From an uncultured Porphyromonadaceae bacterium (GTDB lineage Bacteria; Bacteroidota; Bacteroidia; Bacteroidales; Muribaculaceae), in the NCBI GenBank assembly GCA_947177405.1, contig CAMWUJ010000001.1:41673-105672 (forward strand): DNA of 64,000 nucleotides. The letters run 5' to 3'. The number at the start of each line of letters is the position of its first letter. The first letter of the stretch is position 1. Shown piece by piece: positions 172 to 61,694 of the stretch. The position numbers and the translations under genes are program-made. Below the pieces are notes generated by a model that saw only the letters and a program-made list of their open reading frames with translations, was not told the origin of the DNA and made no database searches.

Positions 172-1161
172 TTAAAATAAATGGAATGGCACAACAAATT
201 GTGCTTTCGAACGCATAAAATACTGCGCCTCAGGCTTTGACATATCAACAGAATATATTTTATACACTACAAATTGAGGATCCTGGGGGTCTCCGTATAA
301 GGCACTCTGAAACGATGAGGCTCCCCCTTGAGAGAAATCTTCAGTAGATGTCAGTGCATATACTTTGAATTTGAATTTACCGTTATGCTCCTTCGCCTGA
401 TGTCTGATAATCTTCTCCCACTTCACATTCTTTCCTTTGAATTTCAATACCTCTCCTGAATAATTAACTTTCGTGTCAAGAAGTCGCGACAAATTGGCCA
501 TTTCCACCACCGACGGCACATACCATCCAGGTCCCCACTTGTCAAGAGCTGTCTGGACAGGATACATTTCCGCCCCATATTTGGGATGAGCGGACTGGAA
601 GTAACGCAGCTTCTGAAGGTTGGCGTAACCGTTGGTCTTATCATTAGTGCCGAGAGGCATACTTTTATCTCCGTTGAATATGGATCCCCATCCATTTTGC
701 CCGCTTGTCCTGACAGGCACCTCCTTATGCCCGACAATACGTCCATGACGTCCATCGGGAGTGGTCATGACTACTATTCCCTCCACTCCGTTCTCATTAT
801 ACCAATCACCGACATGATAAACTTTGGAGGCCGGAGGAAACGAGGAGAAATCCGGCTCCGTACTCACATGATGGTATTTCCCGTTCACTATATAATCCAC
901 CTTCGGGATTTCTGAATTTGCAACCGATTCCTTAGTAGGAATAATCTCCTCAGTGCTGTTGTCATATTTGATTTTGAAAACCTTTTCAATTGAAATTTCC
1001 CTGTCGAAATTTTCTCCCGTCTTTCTGAATAGTATTTTGTCGGGATGAACCTCCTTCACCGTGCCCTTCATACCGGAAGCGTCGCGCATCACAATCTCAT
1101 CCGCGCAGATGATGCCTGCGCCGCTGAGAAACGCCAGTATTAAGAATATTATTTTTTTCAT
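172..1161 (-). CDS. Secreted hypothetical protein; N-terminal domain resembles the upstream neighbour
   Basis: ORF 172..1215; more plausible start at internal MKKIIFLILAFLSGAGIICA (signal peptide), overlapping the 1158 stop of the upstream gene. Confidence 0.75.
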   Translation of the reverse strand: MKKIIFLILAFLSGAGIICADEIVMRDASGMKGTVKEVHPDKILFRKTGENFDREISIEKVFKIKYDNSTEEIIPTKESVANSEIPKVDYIVNGKYHHVSTEPDFSSFPPASKVYHVGDWYNENGVEGIVVMTTPDGRHGRIVGHKEVPVRTSGQNGWGSIFNGDKSMPLGTNDKTNGYANLQKLRYFQSAHPKYGAEMYPVQTALDKWGPGWYVPSVVEMANLSRLLDTKVNYSGEVLKFKGKNVKWEKIIRHQAKEHNGKFKFKVYALTSTEDFSQGGASSFQSALYGDPQDPQFVVYKIYSVDMSKPEAQYFMRSKAQFVVPFHLF

Positions 1162-2084
1162 AGCTTGCCCAATCTTATTCCTATCGTTCCACCTACAGTT
1201 ATAGTCGGACTCCATGAAAGACCGTCACCTTTAAAAGCATTCGTGAAATCAAAGCCCAATTGAAGTCCTATATCCAAAACTCCGAGACTTGCTCCGAAAT
1301 AGAGTTTTTCAGGACAGCGTAGCAGATTTAATGCATCGTCTGTTTTCTTGCTATTCAGTGTGCTGCGTAAAAGGAGATCGAAAGAAGCTGTGGCCCCAAA
1401 CATAAAATATTCCGTCTTATACCAATATCCGAAAGGCACACCGATGTAAGTTCCGTTCAATGCAGGCCATTCTACATCTTTCGGCTTCTTGCCTGTGTAC
1501 ATCGCCAGATCGCCCTGAAGCCATGTAAATCCGAGTCCTACACTCCAGGCCGTGTCATTGCCACTCGCAAAAAGACAGTGAAGGTCTATATTGGCAGCGA
1601 ATCCGCCCCAGTCTATCTCTATATTCCCGGATCCGCTTCCGGTGCTTTGATAGCCCAACGTTGCACGGGGCATAAATGTAAAATCGGCGAAACGGCGCTT
1701 CTCCTGCGGTGGATCCACTACAACTCCACTCATAGTTTGCTGAGCCACACCGCTCAAGGTGGACTGATTTGAAGAAGGAGTCTCCGCAGTGCCCGAGGAT
1801 TGTACATTTCCCGAGCCGGTAGTGGAATCGGATGAGGAATCCAAGTGATTGATCACTTCCCTTTCCCCATTGTCAAATTCAATATAGAAAACCTTTTCAC
1901 GAGGCACCACATATTTGGGACCCGTAAGATTGGATGCCTTTTGATAGGTGATCTCTTTTTCTCCGATAGTCACTACTTTTGCCGCGATTTCTTCTCCGGA
2001 GGTAAGACATATCACATCTCCCATTGCTGCTGCCGGAATGAAGAGAGAGAGCGTCATGATACCATAACCCAATGTTCGTTTCAT
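1158..2084 (-). CDS. Secreted hypothetical protein with beta-rich C-terminus
   Basis: 308 aa ORF with signal peptide; N-terminal VICLTSGEEIAAKV...FYIEFDNGERE motif shared with downstream gene. Confidence 0.8.
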   Translation of the reverse strand: MKRTLGYGIMTLSLFIPAAAMGDVICLTSGEEIAAKVVTIGEKEITYQKASNLTGPKYVVPREKVFYIEFDNGEREVINHLDSSSDSTTGSGNVQSSGTAETPSSNQSTLSGVAQQTMSGVVVDPPQEKRRFADFTFMPRATLGYQSTGSGSGNIEIDWGGFAANIDLHCLFASGNDTAWSVGLGFTWLQGDLAMYTGKKPKDVEWPALNGTYIGVPFGYWYKTEYFMFGATASFDLLLRSTLNSKKTDDALNLLRCPEKLYFGASLGVLDIGLQLGFDFTNAFKGDGLSWSPTITVGGTIGIRLGKL

Positions 2085-2133
2085 AAAGATTTCTCATGTC
2101 TTCCCCGCTCTCTGAAAAAGACTTTTTAGAATA

Positions 2134-2460
2134 TAAAAAATGCGTGAGAGCCTTACTTATCGTCCATTCTCCTATCAGAGGTCTTCGCATTACCTTCTCA
2201 GTAAAAACGGACAGATTCGCAGAAGTCTCACGCAGTATATGCCGGCTTCGCCGATGGTTAATATCCAAAAGAATATAAACCATCGGCTGATGCTGCATAG
2301 CTACATCAACATCCACTGTCGGTCTTTTCCTTAACTGAGAATTAGAAAGTTGCGAAGTTCCTGATCGGAAGGAAAAGCGTCGAGTAAACGCATTTATACA
2401 ATATGTCTGCCGACCAGCCCGCTCCTCCTTGTCAAAGACTTCTGCGTTTTGGCCTGCATC
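2134..2460 (-). ncRNA. Candidate structured RNA, copy A
   Basis: TAAATTTG -7 box at 2463-2470 (minus); conserved GCGUUUA...ACGC hairpin, long variable hairpin, CAUAUACUGCGUGAG ... GGCUCUCACGCAUUUUUU; matches copies B and C. Confidence 0.65.
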
Positions 2461-3022
2461 CGCAAATTTAATACTTTTTCTTTATTCCTCAAATTATTAT
2501 ATCAATTTTTTAAAATGACTTGTATCAGGTATAAAAACAATGACGCCACGAAATTTCACAATCTCACGGCGCCTTGTGATTTTTTAGACTCGCCTACTTT
2601 CACAAGCAAACTGCAATCCTACTAAACCACTAACTTACAAATTTTATATCACTATTACTTAAAAGATTTTTGACTTGCCATCTTATATGAAACCGTAAGT
2701 CCACGGTTTTATCCATTGCAAAATTATAAAATTTCGAAACTCCCTGCAATAGTTTGCAGTGGATTTTTACTATTTTTTTATTATTAAAAATTAATTTTAT
2801 CAGGATTGTGCAATATCTTTTTACAAACAAAATTTCATTCGCTGCAATACCCCTGTCCCCGATACATTTCAAAAAAATTTACATTTCTTTTGGCTATCTC
2901 ATCTTTATATTATAACTTTGATAGACGGCTCTCAACCGGCGCCGGGACACCTTCCCTTTCCTCAAGCCCGAAAGCCGCCTGAGAACCACCGTTACCTTGA
3001 AATTATAATAATCCAAATAACG

Positions 3023-46139: not shown

Positions 46140-46787
46140 TTAATGTCGAGGAGTATTACAAGATGAACATCTTACATGGTAATGTTCAGAATACTTTCCG
46201 CATATTCTACATTTATTCCCTTTACTATTATATTCAGCCAACCAACTGGCGGTGCCGTAGATTTGTGATGGAGACGGGTCAATGCCACTGCCTCCACACT
46301 TGGAGCAACTGCTATTCCTCTTTGGTTTTGAACTATGTGAATCTCCGGATGAATCTTCCCATGAATAGTCAAAAGTGATCCCTTCTGATTGATAATATTT
46401 GTTTGCATCATAAAATGCTAACTGTTCTTCTTTACTGTCCACATACCAAGTTGTCATGGTCCAATCCCCATACATGGAAACAATTTGAGCCATTTTTGAT
46501 CTATCGGGTGATATTACATATTCTATTGTGCCATATTGACTTGTATTACGATATAAATCATCTCCGGATGGAAGAGTTTTTATGAATTTAGCTGGTGCGG
46601 CAGTACCGAAAGTGAACGGATCTCCAAATTGGGCAGTCGTACCGCCGTCATTGTAAACGGAAATGCTTCCATTAAAGCCAATCGAATGAGTTGGGTAATA
46701 GGTTCTGAAGAAAGCACCACTAAGAAAGCCGGCAGATACAGCAAGTGCATTAAAAATAAAACAGAACAATAATACTAATTTTTTCAT
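46140..46787 (-). CDS. Secreted hypothetical protein with C-terminal zinc-ribbon-like Cys clusters
   Basis: Signal peptide MKKLVLLFCFIFNALAVSAG; CSKCGGSG...CRICGKYSEHYHVRCSSC. Confidence 0.75.
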   Translation of the reverse strand: MKKLVLLFCFIFNALAVSAGFLSGAFFRTYYPTHSIGFNGSISVYNDGGTTAQFGDPFTFGTAAPAKFIKTLPSGDDLYRNTSQYGTIEYVISPDRSKMAQIVSMYGDWTMTTWYVDSKEEQLAFYDANKYYQSEGITFDYSWEDSSGDSHSSKPKRNSSCSKCGGSGIDPSPSQIYGTASWLAEYNSKGNKCRICGKYSEHYHVRCSSCNTPRH

Positions 46788-46831
46788 AAAAATTGATGCC
46801 GTAAGACTCCCTTCATTGGCGTTAGATTAAA

Positions 46832-47095
46832 GATAAAAAGCGTGAGAGTCTGTATCTTCTACTCGTCTCACGTTCAGAGGCTCTGGAATGCCTTTCAGGA
46901 TGAAACGAGCAGTTAGAGCCTCACGCAGATATGTGAATATCATGTATCTTCTCACGGAGATACATGTCATATATCACAATCGAAAGGCATCCATCACTGC
47001 ATCATTCGACCCTTGTTGAAATTTTCCAGATTTCTGAACGTCAAATGAGCGCGGATAAACGCTTCTTTTAATAATTATGCCAATCGGTGGATTGA
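46832..47095 (-). ncRNA. Candidate structured RNA, copy B
   Basis: TAAATTTG -7 box near 47101-47108 (minus); GCGUUUAUCCGCGC, CAUGUAUCU/AGAUACAUG hairpin, CAUAUCUGCGUGAG...GACUCUCACGCUUUUU. Confidence 0.65.
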
Positions 47096-47285
47096 CAACG
47101 CAAATTTAGAAAAAACTTTTATGATTTCAAAATCTTTTTGTAAGCTGATTGTATTGTTTCATCTAAATTTTGTTGAATGAGCTTTTATATAAATTTCATA
47201 CTCCAACCCTGAAATTTCTATTGGAATATCAAAAGTTTCATAGTTTTGTTGTATCTTTGTACTCATACATACAAACATTTCTATT

Positions 47286-56986: not shown

Positions 56987-57707
56987 AGTATAATAAATTA
57001 AGTTTGGGGTGGAAGATCAAGTATAAGATTAGATTCAATATCTTTTTCTCACCCTTCACTAATATAACAAACTCCCCGCATCACATATATATTAAATAAT
57101 GATAAAGAAAGACATGAAATATTAAGACTCCATCCAATAAAATTTCAGGAAGTACGAAAGTATACTATTGAGATGTATGCGAGAATTCTTGCCGATTCCG
57201 AGGTGGGCGCAGCCCGGACAAATTCCTGCGCTCAGATACATCTCAATCCTTTTGATGGAATTATGATGAATCCGAGCGCAGGAACCTTTTGCCCTTAAGG
57301 GCGACGCTGAAATAGCAGGAATTGACGCAGAAGGGATCTGACAGGAGAACATGGAGACCGTTGCCGGAATTTTCAGGATATAAGACACATAATTGAATTA
57401 TTCCGCGATTTCCGCTCCATTCAACCGCTGGGCGGTTCCCTTAGTTCCGTACTACTTTATTTCCCATAAGTTCAAAAACAATACAGCATCTGTAATTAAA
57501 GGTAGAGCAAAACAAATGGTGGCCTCGCCCACACATTTGCGTCATGGAGCTGAATGACTCACCAACAATTTGGTTCGATTTGGTTCGATTTAACCCCGAT
57601 ATTTGGAAAATAAATATAGAGAGCTTATCTTTGCACCAGAGTCAAAGAAGCCTCTTTTTTCCCTTCTCTCTTGACTGGCATTAAAATAATATGTATATTT
57701 GCTGATG

Positions 57708-58033
57708 ACTCTCTTCGAGATGTCGGCAGATAGTCGAAAGAGAGACCTTTCCTTGCATAGAGATGCAGGGGAAAATAAATAAAGTGTGTTTACTACGCGC
57801 TCATTCTTGGCTTGTTGAGACCTGGAAAATCTTATTAGGAGACAAGAACAGCGGCAGCAGTTGACCAACGTTGGATAGACTATATCCGGCCGGTGCGGAC
57901 GCGCGAGCGTCTGCTCTTGCCACATATACTCGACCTGCGTGAGGCTTCGATGCTGTTCGTTCTTCTCCAAAGGCAATTCCAGGGCCACAACAAGCAGAAC
58001 GACCGGCAAGTATGGCTCTCACGCACTTTTTTT
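57708..58033 (+). ncRNA. Candidate structured RNA, copy C
   Basis: TATATTTG -7 box at 57694-57701 with TTGACT about 20 bp upstream; GUGUUUACUACGCGCUCAUU, GC hairpin, CAUAUACUCGACCUGCGUGAGG...GGCUCUCACGCACUUUUUUU. Confidence 0.7.
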
Positions 58034-58080
58034 ACTAACTTAACGCTGTTTAAGAGAGACTAAACAGACAAAAACATTTC

Positions 58081-59031
58081 ATGAAAACCAGATTAACCTT
58101 ACTCTTATTTTCTTTATTCTATTTTAGTATTCTTTTTGGAGAGGAAATAAAGAAACCAACGGTAATGATCTTACCAAGTGATAATTGGTGTACGCAACGG
58201 TATTTTACTCAATCATTTCACAATCAAGGAACAATAAGTAAAGTTTCCGACTATCAACGCGCCTTTGCCGAAGATATTGAACTTTCTCAAGTCATATCTA
58301 AAGTTGGAGGAGTTTTAACCGACATGGGGTATAGTCTTAAGGACGCTGAAATGGAGATTAAGTCTCTTAGTGTGAAGCAAGCTGAGGATAATGTTATGTC
58401 AAGTAAAACCTCTGGCGCAAACATTTCCGAAACTCCACTCGACGTGCTTAAACGTCGTATGAAATCAGATATCGTTATTCAGTTATGGTGGAATATTACT
58501 AAAGATCCGGCTGGAAAGATAGTTTCATTTACCCTTGAAGCATTTGATTCCTATACTAATAAACGCATAGCTACGGCTACCGGCAATTCCAATCCAACAA
58601 CTGCACCGGTCCCTGTCGCATTGGAAGAAGCTATCAAGAAAAATATAAAAGAATTTGATAATCAACTTGACAAATGGTATGCCGACCAAAAGAAGCATGG
58701 AAGAGAGATTGCATTAACAGTGCGTTGTTGGGATAATTGGGACAATGACTTGGAAACAGAATATAATGGTGAGGAACTGACCGATATTATTCAGGATTGG
58801 TTGCGTGATAACACTGTTAACGGAAGCTTTAACCTCAGTGATGGCACAGAGTCATTCGCTCAATTTGAGCAGGTCCGTATTCCTTTAAAGGACAAGAATG
58901 GGAAGGCAATGGATGCAAGGGCATTTGCTACAGCGTTACGCAAGTATTTGCAAAAATCTCCCTATGATATTACTTCAAAAGTTGTTATACGTGGCCTTGG
59001 TGAGGCGATCTTAATTTTAGGAGAAAAATGA
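58081..59031 (+). CDS. DUF6175-like secreted protein
   Basis: Signal peptide; KKPTVMILPSDNWCTQRYFTQSF...DIELSQVISKVGGVLTDMGYSLKDAE. Confidence 0.7.
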   Translation: MKTRLTLLLFSLFYFSILFGEEIKKPTVMILPSDNWCTQRYFTQSFHNQGTISKVSDYQRAFAEDIELSQVISKVGGVLTDMGYSLKDAEMEIKSLSVKQAEDNVMSSKTSGANISETPLDVLKRRMKSDIVIQLWWNITKDPAGKIVSFTLEAFDSYTNKRIATATGNSNPTTAPVPVALEEAIKKNIKEFDNQLDKWYADQKKHGREIALTVRCWDNWDNDLETEYNGEELTDIIQDWLRDNTVNGSFNLSDGTESFAQFEQVRIPLKDKNGKAMDARAFATALRKYLQKSPYDITSKVVIRGLGEAILILGEK

Positions 59032-59996
59032 TAAAAAATATTTTAATGATTGCACTCTCTATATGTAGTTATATAGGAGTTCAAGCAGCCGAAATATCAG
59101 GAAAAATATCTTATTTTCCTGTTGTTACAGGCGATATGCCTGAAGCCTCACGAAAATTTTTAGTTTCAAAAATGGAACAGGCACTGACTCAAAATGGATA
59201 TGGGACATTAAATAGAACCGACCGTTTTGTATTACTTGCCAAATGTAATGTTTTGCAAAAGGATGTGACTCCAACTACTCCCCCTCGCATTTCTCAGAAA
59301 GTGGAAGTTACATTTATTCTCGGAGATGCTGTGGAGAATAAAACATACGCTTCCGCTAGTATTGAATTGTCGGGTATAGGAATTAACGAGACTAAAGCGT
59401 GGCAAACTGCCCTTAACGTCTTAAAACCTGCAAATCCGATTTTTAAAGAAATGCTTGGTGAGGCGTCTAATAAGATTGAAGCTTATTATTCAGAGCATTG
59501 TGAGAGCATAATCTCTAAGGCCCGCACGCTTGCTTCGACAGGCAAGAGTGAAGAAGCTATAGCCAGTCTTATGGCTATTCCTGACATTTGCAATACCTGT
59601 TATGAAAAATCAATGGAGGTAGCTTGTGAAATATATCAGAATATGATTGATGCAGAAGGCGAATCATTACTTTCAAAAGCAAAAAATGCATGGTTAGTCT
59701 CGTCTGATGAAAAAGGGGCTGAGCTTGCTATGACATATCTTAATGAGATTCCGGTTGCCTCCTCAGCATTTGCAGAAGCAGAAACTTTTGCTAAAAGAAT
59801 ATCCAAGGAATTATCCGATGAAAAAGAGAGACAATGGCAATTTAAACTTCAGCAATATAATGATGAAAAAGAATTCCGCAATCGCGAGCAAGCGAATCGC
59901 CATTCCTATTCTATGGCTACTATCGCAGCAGCACGCTCAGTCGGTGAAAAATGGGCACAAAATCAACCCCAGACAAAAGTATATCTAAAATGGTAG
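59028..59996 (+). CDS. Secreted hypothetical protein (LpoB-like N-terminal region)
   Basis: 322 aa, overlaps previous gene; signal peptide. Confidence 0.65.
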   Translation: MIKNILMIALSICSYIGVQAAEISGKISYFPVVTGDMPEASRKFLVSKMEQALTQNGYGTLNRTDRFVLLAKCNVLQKDVTPTTPPRISQKVEVTFILGDAVENKTYASASIELSGIGINETKAWQTALNVLKPANPIFKEMLGEASNKIEAYYSEHCESIISKARTLASTGKSEEAIASLMAIPDICNTCYEKSMEVACEIYQNMIDAEGESLLSKAKNAWLVSSDEKGAELAMTYLNEIPVASSAFAEAETFAKRISKELSDEKERQWQFKLQQYNDEKEFRNREQANRHSYSMATIAAARSVGEKWAQNQPQTKVYLKW

Positions 59997-60041: not shown

Positions 60042-60512
60042 ATGAAAAAAATATTATACGTAGTAATTATATCATTAGCTTTTATGAGTTCATTATCCAT
60101 GAAAGCTCAAAGTTATAATCAGGAAAAGACAGCGTTGACAAACTTTCTCGTGAGGTTGTATGAAAATGCCCCATTTGATGGAGTTAAAGCAGTTGAGGAT
60201 TATGATAATTCCTATCTAATGTCGGTAGTTAAACTTGACAAAAAGAAGTATAATTCAGATTCGGTTCTAAACAGAGTTGCCTCAGTTAAGGCCATGTCTC
60301 AAGCCTCAAGATATCTTAATGGTGCGAATATTTCTTCAGAAATGATTATCCATACTTCTGAGAAATCTAATGGCTGTTTTGATACTGAAATTATTGAGAA
60401 TATTAGGGAGAATTCTTCCGGTTATGTGAATATGCTGGAACAACTCACAAATTTTCAAGCCGATGATGGAGAATGGGTCTTCATATTTCTATCTCCCCTT
60501 TCTATAAAATAA
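60042..60512 (+). CDS. Secreted hypothetical protein
   Basis: 156 aa with signal peptide; co-directional. Confidence 0.65.
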   Translation: MKKILYVVIISLAFMSSLSMKAQSYNQEKTALTNFLVRLYENAPFDGVKAVEDYDNSYLMSVVKLDKKKYNSDSVLNRVASVKAMSQASRYLNGANISSEMIIHTSEKSNGCFDTEIIENIRENSSGYVNMLEQLTNFQADDGEWVFIFLSPLSIK

Positions 60513-60536: not shown

Positions 60537-61694
60537 ATGAATAGAACTATTAAACTTTTAATTTATCTCGTTTCTTTTCTTTGCACTCTAAGTGTTAAAG
60601 CAGCAAATAATAATGATGATGTAACCCTTGTGGTTACATCTGAAGGTAGAAATAAGGATGAAGCTGTTAAGAATGCTTTGCGTTCTGCGATTGAGCAAAC
60701 CTATGGAGTATTCGTTTCTTCAGACACCCAAATTCTAAACGATAAGTTAGTTAAAGATGAGATTGCAACACTCTCTTCCGGTAATATAAAGAAATATCGT
60801 GAAATTGCTTATTCCGTTCTCCCCAATGGTGAATCTTCTGTAACTTTGGAAGCAACTGTAAGCATCGGGAAATTGGTTTCTTATGCTAAAAGTAAGGGTG
60901 CTACCTGTGAATTTGATGGTGCCACTTTTGGATATAATCTTCAACTGGAGGAACTATATGAAGAAAATGAAAAGACAGCTCTTAAGAATCTTGAAACAAT
61001 GATTCTAAATAATCTTCCATATATATACAACGCAAAGATTAATGTAGAACCCGGAAAAGAAAGAAGAGATTATTCTACCAAAAAAATTACAGGGTACGAG
61101 ATGGATGCCACTATTGAATTCGAGGCAAATTCCAATGCAAAAGCTTTTTGGGATGCTGTGAAGAGTACGTTAGAATCTATTTCATTAAGGGATACACCAA
61201 CCAGGGAAGAAGACTTGTATAATACTCATAAAATTCTAGTCATGCAATATCAACCTTCTTCAATTCCAGGTAATGATTACACTCCCTGGGATATAAACAC
61301 ATATTATTACCCCTTGGCTACTGTTTGTAAAAATTATGGTTGGGCCGCTTCCAATCCGTATGACGATCCAGGAGATAATGCAACAAAAGATCTTCGAAAC
61401 ACAGCTGTTTGCTTTACTCGAACTTACATAGGTCCTTGGGAAGAATCTCTTCGACAAGAGATTAGAGAGTTATTAGACATTTCTATAATAACATTAGATG
61501 GAACAACGATAAAAAATTTATATATTAATCCTAATATCTTTTCAACTCCTTACTCAATTATCGATTCTCGCAACAATTCAAAAAAAATTATAATTTTTCC
61601 TAAGAAATTTCGAATTGAGACATCATTTTATATGTCAAAAGAAGAAATTTCCCGATGTAAAGGATTTGAAGTGCAAGGTTTGGGTAACGATTAA
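60537..61694 (+). CDS. Secreted hypothetical protein
   Basis: 385 aa; signal peptide; VVTSEGRNKDEAVKNALRSAIEQTYGVFVSSDTQILNDKLV (LPP20/FlgT-like pattern). Confidence 0.7.
   Translation: MNRTIKLLIYLVSFLCTLSVKAANNNDDVTLVVTSEGRNKDEAVKNALRSAIEQTYGVFVSSDTQILNDKLVKDEIATLSSGNIKKYREIAYSVLPNGESSVTLEATVSIGKLVSYAKSKGATCEFDGATFGYNLQLEELYEENEKTALKNLETMILNNLPYIYNAKINVEPGKERRDYSTKKITGYEMDATIEFEANSNAKAFWDAVKSTLESISLRDTPTREEDLYNTHKILVMQYQPSSIPGNDYTPWDINTYYYPLATVCKNYGWAASNPYDDPGDNATKDLRNTAVCFTRTYIGPWEESLRQEIRELLDISIITLDGTTIKNLYINPNIFSTPYSIIDSRNNSKKIIIFPKKFRIETSFYMSKEEISRCKGFEVQGLGND

Follow-up and report, generated by a model that had tools for sequence, protein, structure and literature searches.

A family of structured RNA elements with two covarying hairpins upstream of genes in the Bacteroidales, proposed to act as cis-acting leaders

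In Bacteroides, capsule loci controlled by UpxY carry a 5′ leader in which control of premature termination has been proposed. Switches of the cobalamin type combine a large conserved fold with loop-loop contacts and a terminator. FopS RNAs, whose consensus combines a single-stranded stretch at the 5′ end with a single terminator hairpin, repress SusC-like transporter mRNAs in trans (PMC11697453). GOLLD, ROOL and OLE are larger, ornate RNAs that form homo-oligomers, as seen by cryo-EM (PMC12286853). A human-microbiome screen has yielded thousands of automated RNA candidates (PMC8040213), and the Bacteroides-2 motif has stayed unregistered (PMC2864571).

Copies within and beyond the window

The DNA analyzed here (the window) is a 64,000-nt stretch from an uncultured member of the Bacteroidales. 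A sequence-only reading had proposed that three of its non-coding segments, A, B and C, share one architecture. All three are present as described: each has a TAnnTTTG promoter box, a GYGUUUA segment, a copy-specific hairpin, the motifs CUGCGUGAG ... CUCUCACGC, and a U-tract, with the parts of A and B in the same order as those of C and on the opposite strand (Table 1). The inner and apical stem pairs quoted in that reading are real, and the 47-nt distance given from copy C to its gene is correct (start codon 58081). Two details needed revision. The extent assigned to copy C (57708-58033) is genuine but ends too early, as hairpin H5 follows. The GYGUUUA segment, taken for one side of a small hairpin with ACGC, mainly forms the 5′ strand of the base of an ∼80-nt hairpin, where it is 95% paired with the 3′ strand GGUAGAUGC.

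Table 1. Features of copies A, B and C in the window
Copy	Feature	Position	Strand	Basis or remark
A	Whole copy	~2470-2098	-	
A	-7 promoter box TAAATTTG	2463..2470	-	sequence
A	Hairpin H2, kissing strand CUUCGCA	2305..2391	-	3′ limit approximate
A	Hairpin H4, kissing strand UGCGAAG	2142..2233	-	
A	K1: CGCAGAAGUCUU (5′ region) with GAGACUUCUGCG in H4 region		-	
A	Hairpin H5, loop GAGAGC complementary to H4 GCUCUC	2098..2122	-	
A	Downstream gene	1158-2084		no Pfam match
B	Whole copy	~47108-46798	-	
B	-7 promoter box TAAATTTG	47101..47108	-	sequence
B	Hairpin H2, helix a ACGUUCAGA, kissing strand UCUGGAA	46988..47062	-	3′ limit approximate
B	Hairpin H4, a′ UCUGAACGU, b′ UUCCAGA	46840..46926	-	
B	Hairpin H5, GGGAGUCU complementary to AGACUCUC in H4	46798..46820	-	
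B	Downstream gene	46140-46787		no Pfam match
C	Whole copy	~57694-58067	+	
C	-7 promoter box TATATTTG, Bacteroidetes-type	57694..57701	+	sequence
C	5′ hairpin region H1, two copy-specific hairpins	57707..57773	+	fold
C	Hairpin H2	57786..57872	+	sequence and family consensus; 3′ limit approximate because base-stem pairing is poor in this copy
C	H2 mid stem	57804-57809:57843-57848	+	
C	H2 helix-a strand GCUUGUUG	57810-57817	+	
C	H2 kissing strand b CCUGGAA	57821-57827	+	
C	H2 helix-c strand	57838-57842	+	
C	Copy-specific hairpin H3 and CAUAU linker	57880..57930	+	sequence, fold
C	Hairpin H4	57937..58024	+	sequence, consensus, model R1 match (L015)
C	P4a GCGUGAG/CUCACGC, in H4		+	
C	P4b, in H4	57957-57963:57996-58002	+	
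C	H4 strand c′	57964-57968	+	
C	H4 strand b′ UUCCAGG	57977-57983	+	
C	H4 strand a′ CAACAAGC	57988-57995	+	
C	U-tract after P4a, intrinsic-terminator-like	58027..58033	+	sequence
C	Hairpin H5	58046..58067	+	sequence; family-level test
C	K3: H5 loop GAGAG (58054-58058) complementary to CUCUC (58016-58020)		+	
C	Downstream gene, DUF6175 protein	58081..59031	+	hydrophobic N-terminus
C	Three further genes	59028-59996, 60042-60512, 60537-61694		

When the home genome was searched at the nucleotide level, several partial matches came up. With a covariance model of the H4 domain (R1; 29 pairs, built from seven copies of one genome), we found 13 strong copies there at E ≤ 1e-9, plus fragments, so the family is larger than the three copies initially noted. 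The covariance model also retrieved hundreds of copies beyond the home genome. At least one match was present in 33 of 36 other genomes of the genus, with up to 17 per genome, and 40 of 294 genomes forming an even sample of the Bacteroidales had matches at E ≤ 1e-6, spread over many families. A class-wide genome sample gave no matches outside the order. These prevalences are lower bounds, because the large samples were searched with strict filters and a model derived from one genome. Among the matches listed in a pattern scan, the named carriers include assemblies of Prevotella, Paraprevotella, Xylanibacter, Bacteroides, Barnesiella, Muribaculaceae and Alistipes. Carriers available in culture include Paraprevotella clara YIT 11840, with 10 matches, and P. 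xylaniphila YIT 11841, with 9.

The fold energy of copy C is 6.3 sd below that of shuffled sequences, and 3′ domains fold 4.4-6.4 sd below shuffles. These values, together with the 13 home-genome copies and the hundreds elsewhere, exclude a chance origin of the family. A protein-coding element was rejected, given that the median length of the longest complete ORF beginning with ATG in the element is only 26 aa; free length variation in H1 and H3 also contradicts it.

Whether the element belongs to a known RNA family had been left undecided. Using the covariance models of Rfam 15, we obtained no matches in the window at the gathering score, and none to the T-box model; searching the three copies at relaxed E values returned sub-threshold, chance-like matches only. 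A known Rfam family was rejected on these grounds. Copies A, B and C are members of one structured RNA family without an Rfam match. Our literature search, which left the candidate tables of PMC8040213 and the Bacteroides-2 motif (PMC2864571) outside the comparison, found no prior description, and a fragment of the family could be among the PMC8040213 candidates. This widespread family has apparently gone undescribed so far.

One copy lies in a 4.3-kb record labelled Bacteriophage sp. (MT839469.1:1483-1576) and five viral contigs also carry copies (IMG/VR loci L254-L258), hinting that phages or prophages have some role in spreading them. A plasmid-borne element was rejected, as there was no plasmid match; phage matches are few. 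An IS110-family transposase (PF01548/PF02371) sits directly at the 3′ end of one copy (L027:413-1500), and the junction at which CACGT abuts ATTCTATGTTAAATTCC is common to this copy and a second one (L068), as if an IS110-family element targeted the terminator stem. In another case (L024:1501-1700), H4 is cut after P4b and continues straight into the end of an ORF resembling a type IX secretion sorting domain; this fusion may be a recombination or assembly chimera.

Interlocking of hairpins H2 and H4

We extracted 182 copies with both H2 and H4, and aligned segment by segment the 151 with a recognizable promoter box (effective number 136). Covariation was scored with a G-test and average-product correction. 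The covariation first proposed from three copies holds in this alignment, and the top-ranked pairs are long-range. Helix a joins H2 25-32 to H4 60-53 in eight pairs (0.82-0.98 canonical), six of which show four to six pair types (z 23-48; this and the other covariation scores are not phylogeny-corrected). Helix c joins H2 52-57 to H4 34-29 (0.79-0.87 canonical, z up to 32). Both helices are copy-specific and connect the terminal loops of the two hairpins. Helix b (H2 36-41 with H4 48-43; 0.96-1.00 canonical, z up to 30) is a six-pair kissing contact between the apical loops. Local stems are also supported: in H2, the base (0.95 paired), the mid stem (0.81) and the apical stem; in H4, the nearly invariant P4a (0.99), the apical stem (0.99) and the first eight pairs of P4b (0.95-0.99). 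What the sequence-only reading missed is the strongest feature, the pairing between two hairpin loops.

Shifting the partners by one to three columns abolishes the signal for most helices. The exceptions are helix b, neighboring registers of which keep part of the signal, and the percentage paired in P4a. We also compared helix scores for segments taken from the same copy with those for swapped copies, using 5000 permutations. Although these permutations ignore phylogeny, control segment pairs mostly gave z values of -2.2 to 0.7, which argues that relatedness alone does not create the pairing signal; exceptions were P4a (10.5) and H2 with the 5′ strand of H4 (5.0). For the H2 loop with the H4 loop, own-copy helices beat swapped ones with z=23.7, and none of the permutations did as well. 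In 21 held-out copies from other genomes, z was 14.6 for helix a, 7.7 for b and 12.3 for c.

When the helices are drawn together, the H2 mid stem, a, P4b and c would make up one four-way junction, while a, the H2 apical stem, c and the H4 apical stem would make up a second, adjacent one, closed by the kissing loop. The minimum-free-energy fold of the whole of copy C does not display this arrangement. A simple chain of local hairpins was rejected, as the covariation backs the interlocked structure better. Comparative evidence strongly supports the predicted fold of the family, in which the H2-H4 contact may form within one molecule or between two identical molecules.

A further candidate, helix d, would pair GCAAC in the 3′ arm of H2, which mimics the 3′ strand of P4b, with GUUGC in H4 (alignment H2 69-72 with H4 17-20). 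The z of 5.0 given above for H2 with the 5′ strand of H4 relates to this pairing. Because only a single pair covaries strongly, we keep it just as a possible transient pairing during transcription. In many copies (e.g. L014, L017 and L019), H2 begins with a near-invariant AAAAGCG, to which a CGCUUUU at the terminator is complementary; AAAAGCG hardly varies and is therefore beyond covariation testing.

Position relative to genes and a proposed two-state leader

The TAnnTTTG box lies 40-125 nt upstream of H2 in 157 of the 182 copies, and a box between terminator and gene is seen in only 8. The gene thus seems to depend on read-through. With at least six T in the first 9 nt after P4a in 173/182 copies, the layout is that of an attenuator leader, judged by the consensus promoter box only: a promoter, a stem followed by a U-tract, and a gene without a promoter of its own. 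An ORF follows in 119 of 125 copies, its first AUG at a median of 48 nt after the model match; the median distance from P4a is 66 nt. Three home-genome copies (L009, L010 and L011) share 92-94% identity over a block that begins just ahead of the -33 box and ends at the AUG; outside it they are unrelated. Their genes, named by eye from the N-termini, encode a thioredoxin-like protein, an exported protein and a lipoprotein. Duplication of the promoter-to-AUG block before three unrelated genes indicates that the control unit is portable.

The sequence-only reading had offered a cis-regulator or attenuator and a standalone sRNA as alternatives. The first is favored by the short distance to the AUG, combined with the scarcity of intervening promoter boxes, by duplication of the promoter-to-AUG unit as a block, and by covariation of the hairpin beyond the U-tract with the terminator strand (see below). 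The element is very probably a cis-acting leader. It is improbable that it is a terminated sRNA acting in trans, for example by binding other mRNAs or the H5 hairpin in its own mRNA when that is transcribed from a distant promoter, with the neighboring gene incidental or the only target. Such an RNA would have its own promoter box and terminator, like the box and terminator-like hairpin seen here, and could leave the CUCUC strand exposed for pairing; multi-copy sRNA families are also known in Bacteroides (FopS, PMC11697453). However, it would not be expected to show the fixed AUG distance, block duplication that includes the start codon, or matching of each H4 to its own H5. FopS, as described, has the simpler consensus given above, and a FopS-type sRNA was rejected on structure, the comparison being with the published description (PMC11697453).

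The downstream proteins are diverse. BspA-type leucine-rich repeats are most frequent (15/144); others include PAPS reductase, LytTR and NusG proteins, outer-membrane barrels and methylases, and many have no family. By a crude N-terminal test, 57% have hydrophobic N-termini, compared to 35% of background genes (p=1e-5), and the figure is 50% (p=0.05) when only the loci that also supplied the background are considered. Hence the secreted products noted earlier for the genes after copy C reflect a significant tendency toward secreted or surface proteins, not a rule. This diversity bears on the idea of a small-molecule or ion riboswitch, with conserved GGUAGAUG, CAUAU and GUUUAC as part of the binding site. 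While the large conserved fold, loop-loop contacts and terminator would suit such a switch, genes unrelated to one pathway are odd for a metabolite riboswitch and no Rfam riboswitch matched; we consider this explanation quite improbable.

Three of the 144 downstream genes have a NusG domain, and these possibly encode specialized antitermination factors. The literature regards the UpxY proteins of Bacteroides as factors of this kind, and the element could by analogy be the recognition site of a NusG paralogue of the UpxY/LoaP type. The remaining 141 downstream proteins, though, lack a NusG domain, and we regard this reading as highly improbable.

Two additional pairings flank the H2-H4 fold. 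K1 links a segment near the transcript start, in the loop of H1, to a complement on the 5′ side of the base of H4, the terminator-stem region, in 138/157 copies. The typical pair is GCAGAAGCC with H4 GGCUUCUGC, and variants change in step (GCAGAAACC/GGUUUCUGC, GCAGAGACC/GGUCUCUGC, CUCACGCC/GGCGUGAG, CCCACGCUG/CAGCGUGGG). In K3, the loop of H5, past the U-tract and ∼20 nt upstream of the AUG, has its complement on the 3′ side of the base of H4, covering the same 7-nt segment of the terminator strand in 146/182 copies. In the own-versus-swapped comparison, z was 11.8 for K1 and 7.2 for K3, with no permutation of 5000 as good; held-out copies gave 3.7 for K1 (n=15) and 6.5 for K3 (21 copies). Among the window copies, A and B have a clear K3, and that of C is short, at 5 bp. 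A clear K1 is seen in A alone; in C, its partner is weak or absent and the best helix is short. The lack of a clear K1 in B and C argues against a switch.

Of the P4a stem, K3 occupies the three uppermost base pairs. Covariation ties position 84 of H4 to two partners, one in P4a (z=17.4) and one in H5 (z=5.4). The base is C where both partners are G (68 copies), and U where P4a has A and H5 has either A or G (64 copies). In nearly all copies, the C or U is matched on both sides. K1 reaches the very first bases of P4a, giving full overlap and direct competition, in ∼18 of 138 copies; in most, the overlap is a few bases. Calculated duplex energies, which leave out tertiary and kinetic effects, have medians of -13.2 (P4a), -19.8 (K1) and -11.2 kcal/mol (K3), and in 98% of copies K1 plus K3 exceeds the stability of P4a by itself. 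The K3/P4a overlap, the covariation at position 84 and the energies of K1 plus K3 form the basis of a proposed two-state leader.

In this model, transcription would start at the TAnnTTTG promoter and pass H1, H2 and H3 into H4. H2 and H4 would lock via helices a and c and kissing loop b, and H4, through P4a and the U-tract, would act as an intrinsic terminator. With P4a closed, transcription would stop and a short RNA of ∼300 nt would be released. If instead the H1 loop held the 5′ strand of H4, P4a would be weakened and RNA polymerase could read through; newly made H5 would then take the 3′ strand, locking the read-through form and exposing the start codon ∼20 nt downstream. H5 could not itself prevent termination, because it is made after the terminator. 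The H2-H4 lock would be the likely sensing or timing part. We put the chance of such a cis-acting attenuator leader, with terminator H4 in competition with the H1 and H5 pairings, at about even; that the competing pairings result in regulated termination is our inference.

A leader acting on translation or mRNA stability is a possible but rather unlikely alternative. Here the U-tract would be only a linker or a weak terminator, and the entire RNA, with H5, would form a single fold that serves to present the ribosome-binding region or to protect the 5′ end. Consistent with this, K3 requires RNA past the U-tract, at a constant short distance from the AUG, and the whole promoter-to-AUG block moves together; moreover, since K1 mostly overlaps P4a by a few bases, a 4-bp P4a could remain closed with K1 and K3 bound. 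On the other hand, the U-tract is kept directly behind a GC-rich stem in the 173 copies mentioned above, and position 84 faces constraints from P4a as well as from H5. Conservation of the U-tract and this double constraint suggest two states.

Relation to known systems

Gut-type Bacteroidales carry, in up to 17 copies per genome, an elaborate structured RNA without an apparent Rfam entry, which provides a concrete handle on the control of many surface and accessory genes in the order. With two adjacent four-way junctions and a kissing loop, its predicted fold would parallel, in a natural RNA, the double-crossover tiles of RNA design. There is perhaps an even chance that the family represents a new class of RNA, in which two hairpins would recognize each other via paired four-way junctions and a kissing loop, flanking loops would dock on both terminator strands, and the sequence could drift as long as each copy matches itself. 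Such an RNA might be a portable device that switches accessory surface genes on and off, or it might form an intermolecular dimer or oligomer particular to each copy.

The paralogous FopS/GibS sRNAs of Bacteroides are likewise multi-copy RNAs of the Bacteroidales, but FopS is simpler in structure and acts in trans, in contrast to the cis position seen here (PMC11697453). GOLLD, ROOL and OLE come nearest in complexity, and kissing contacts are common to both (PMC12286853); unlike them, the present family is a ∼300-nt leader, fixed in many copies before genes. The UpxY-controlled capsule leaders are also 5′ leaders of the Bacteroidales, although the great majority of the genes considered here are not in capsule loci. 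Finally, terminator/antiterminator attenuators, such as the riboswitch and T-box platforms, share with this family an own promoter, a structured leader, a terminator-like hairpin, an adjacent gene and an alternative partner for the 5′ terminator strand. The family differs from them in lacking a common target pathway and an Rfam match, in having a second partner, H5, located after the U-tract, and in having loops interlocked by two copy-specific helices and a kissing loop.
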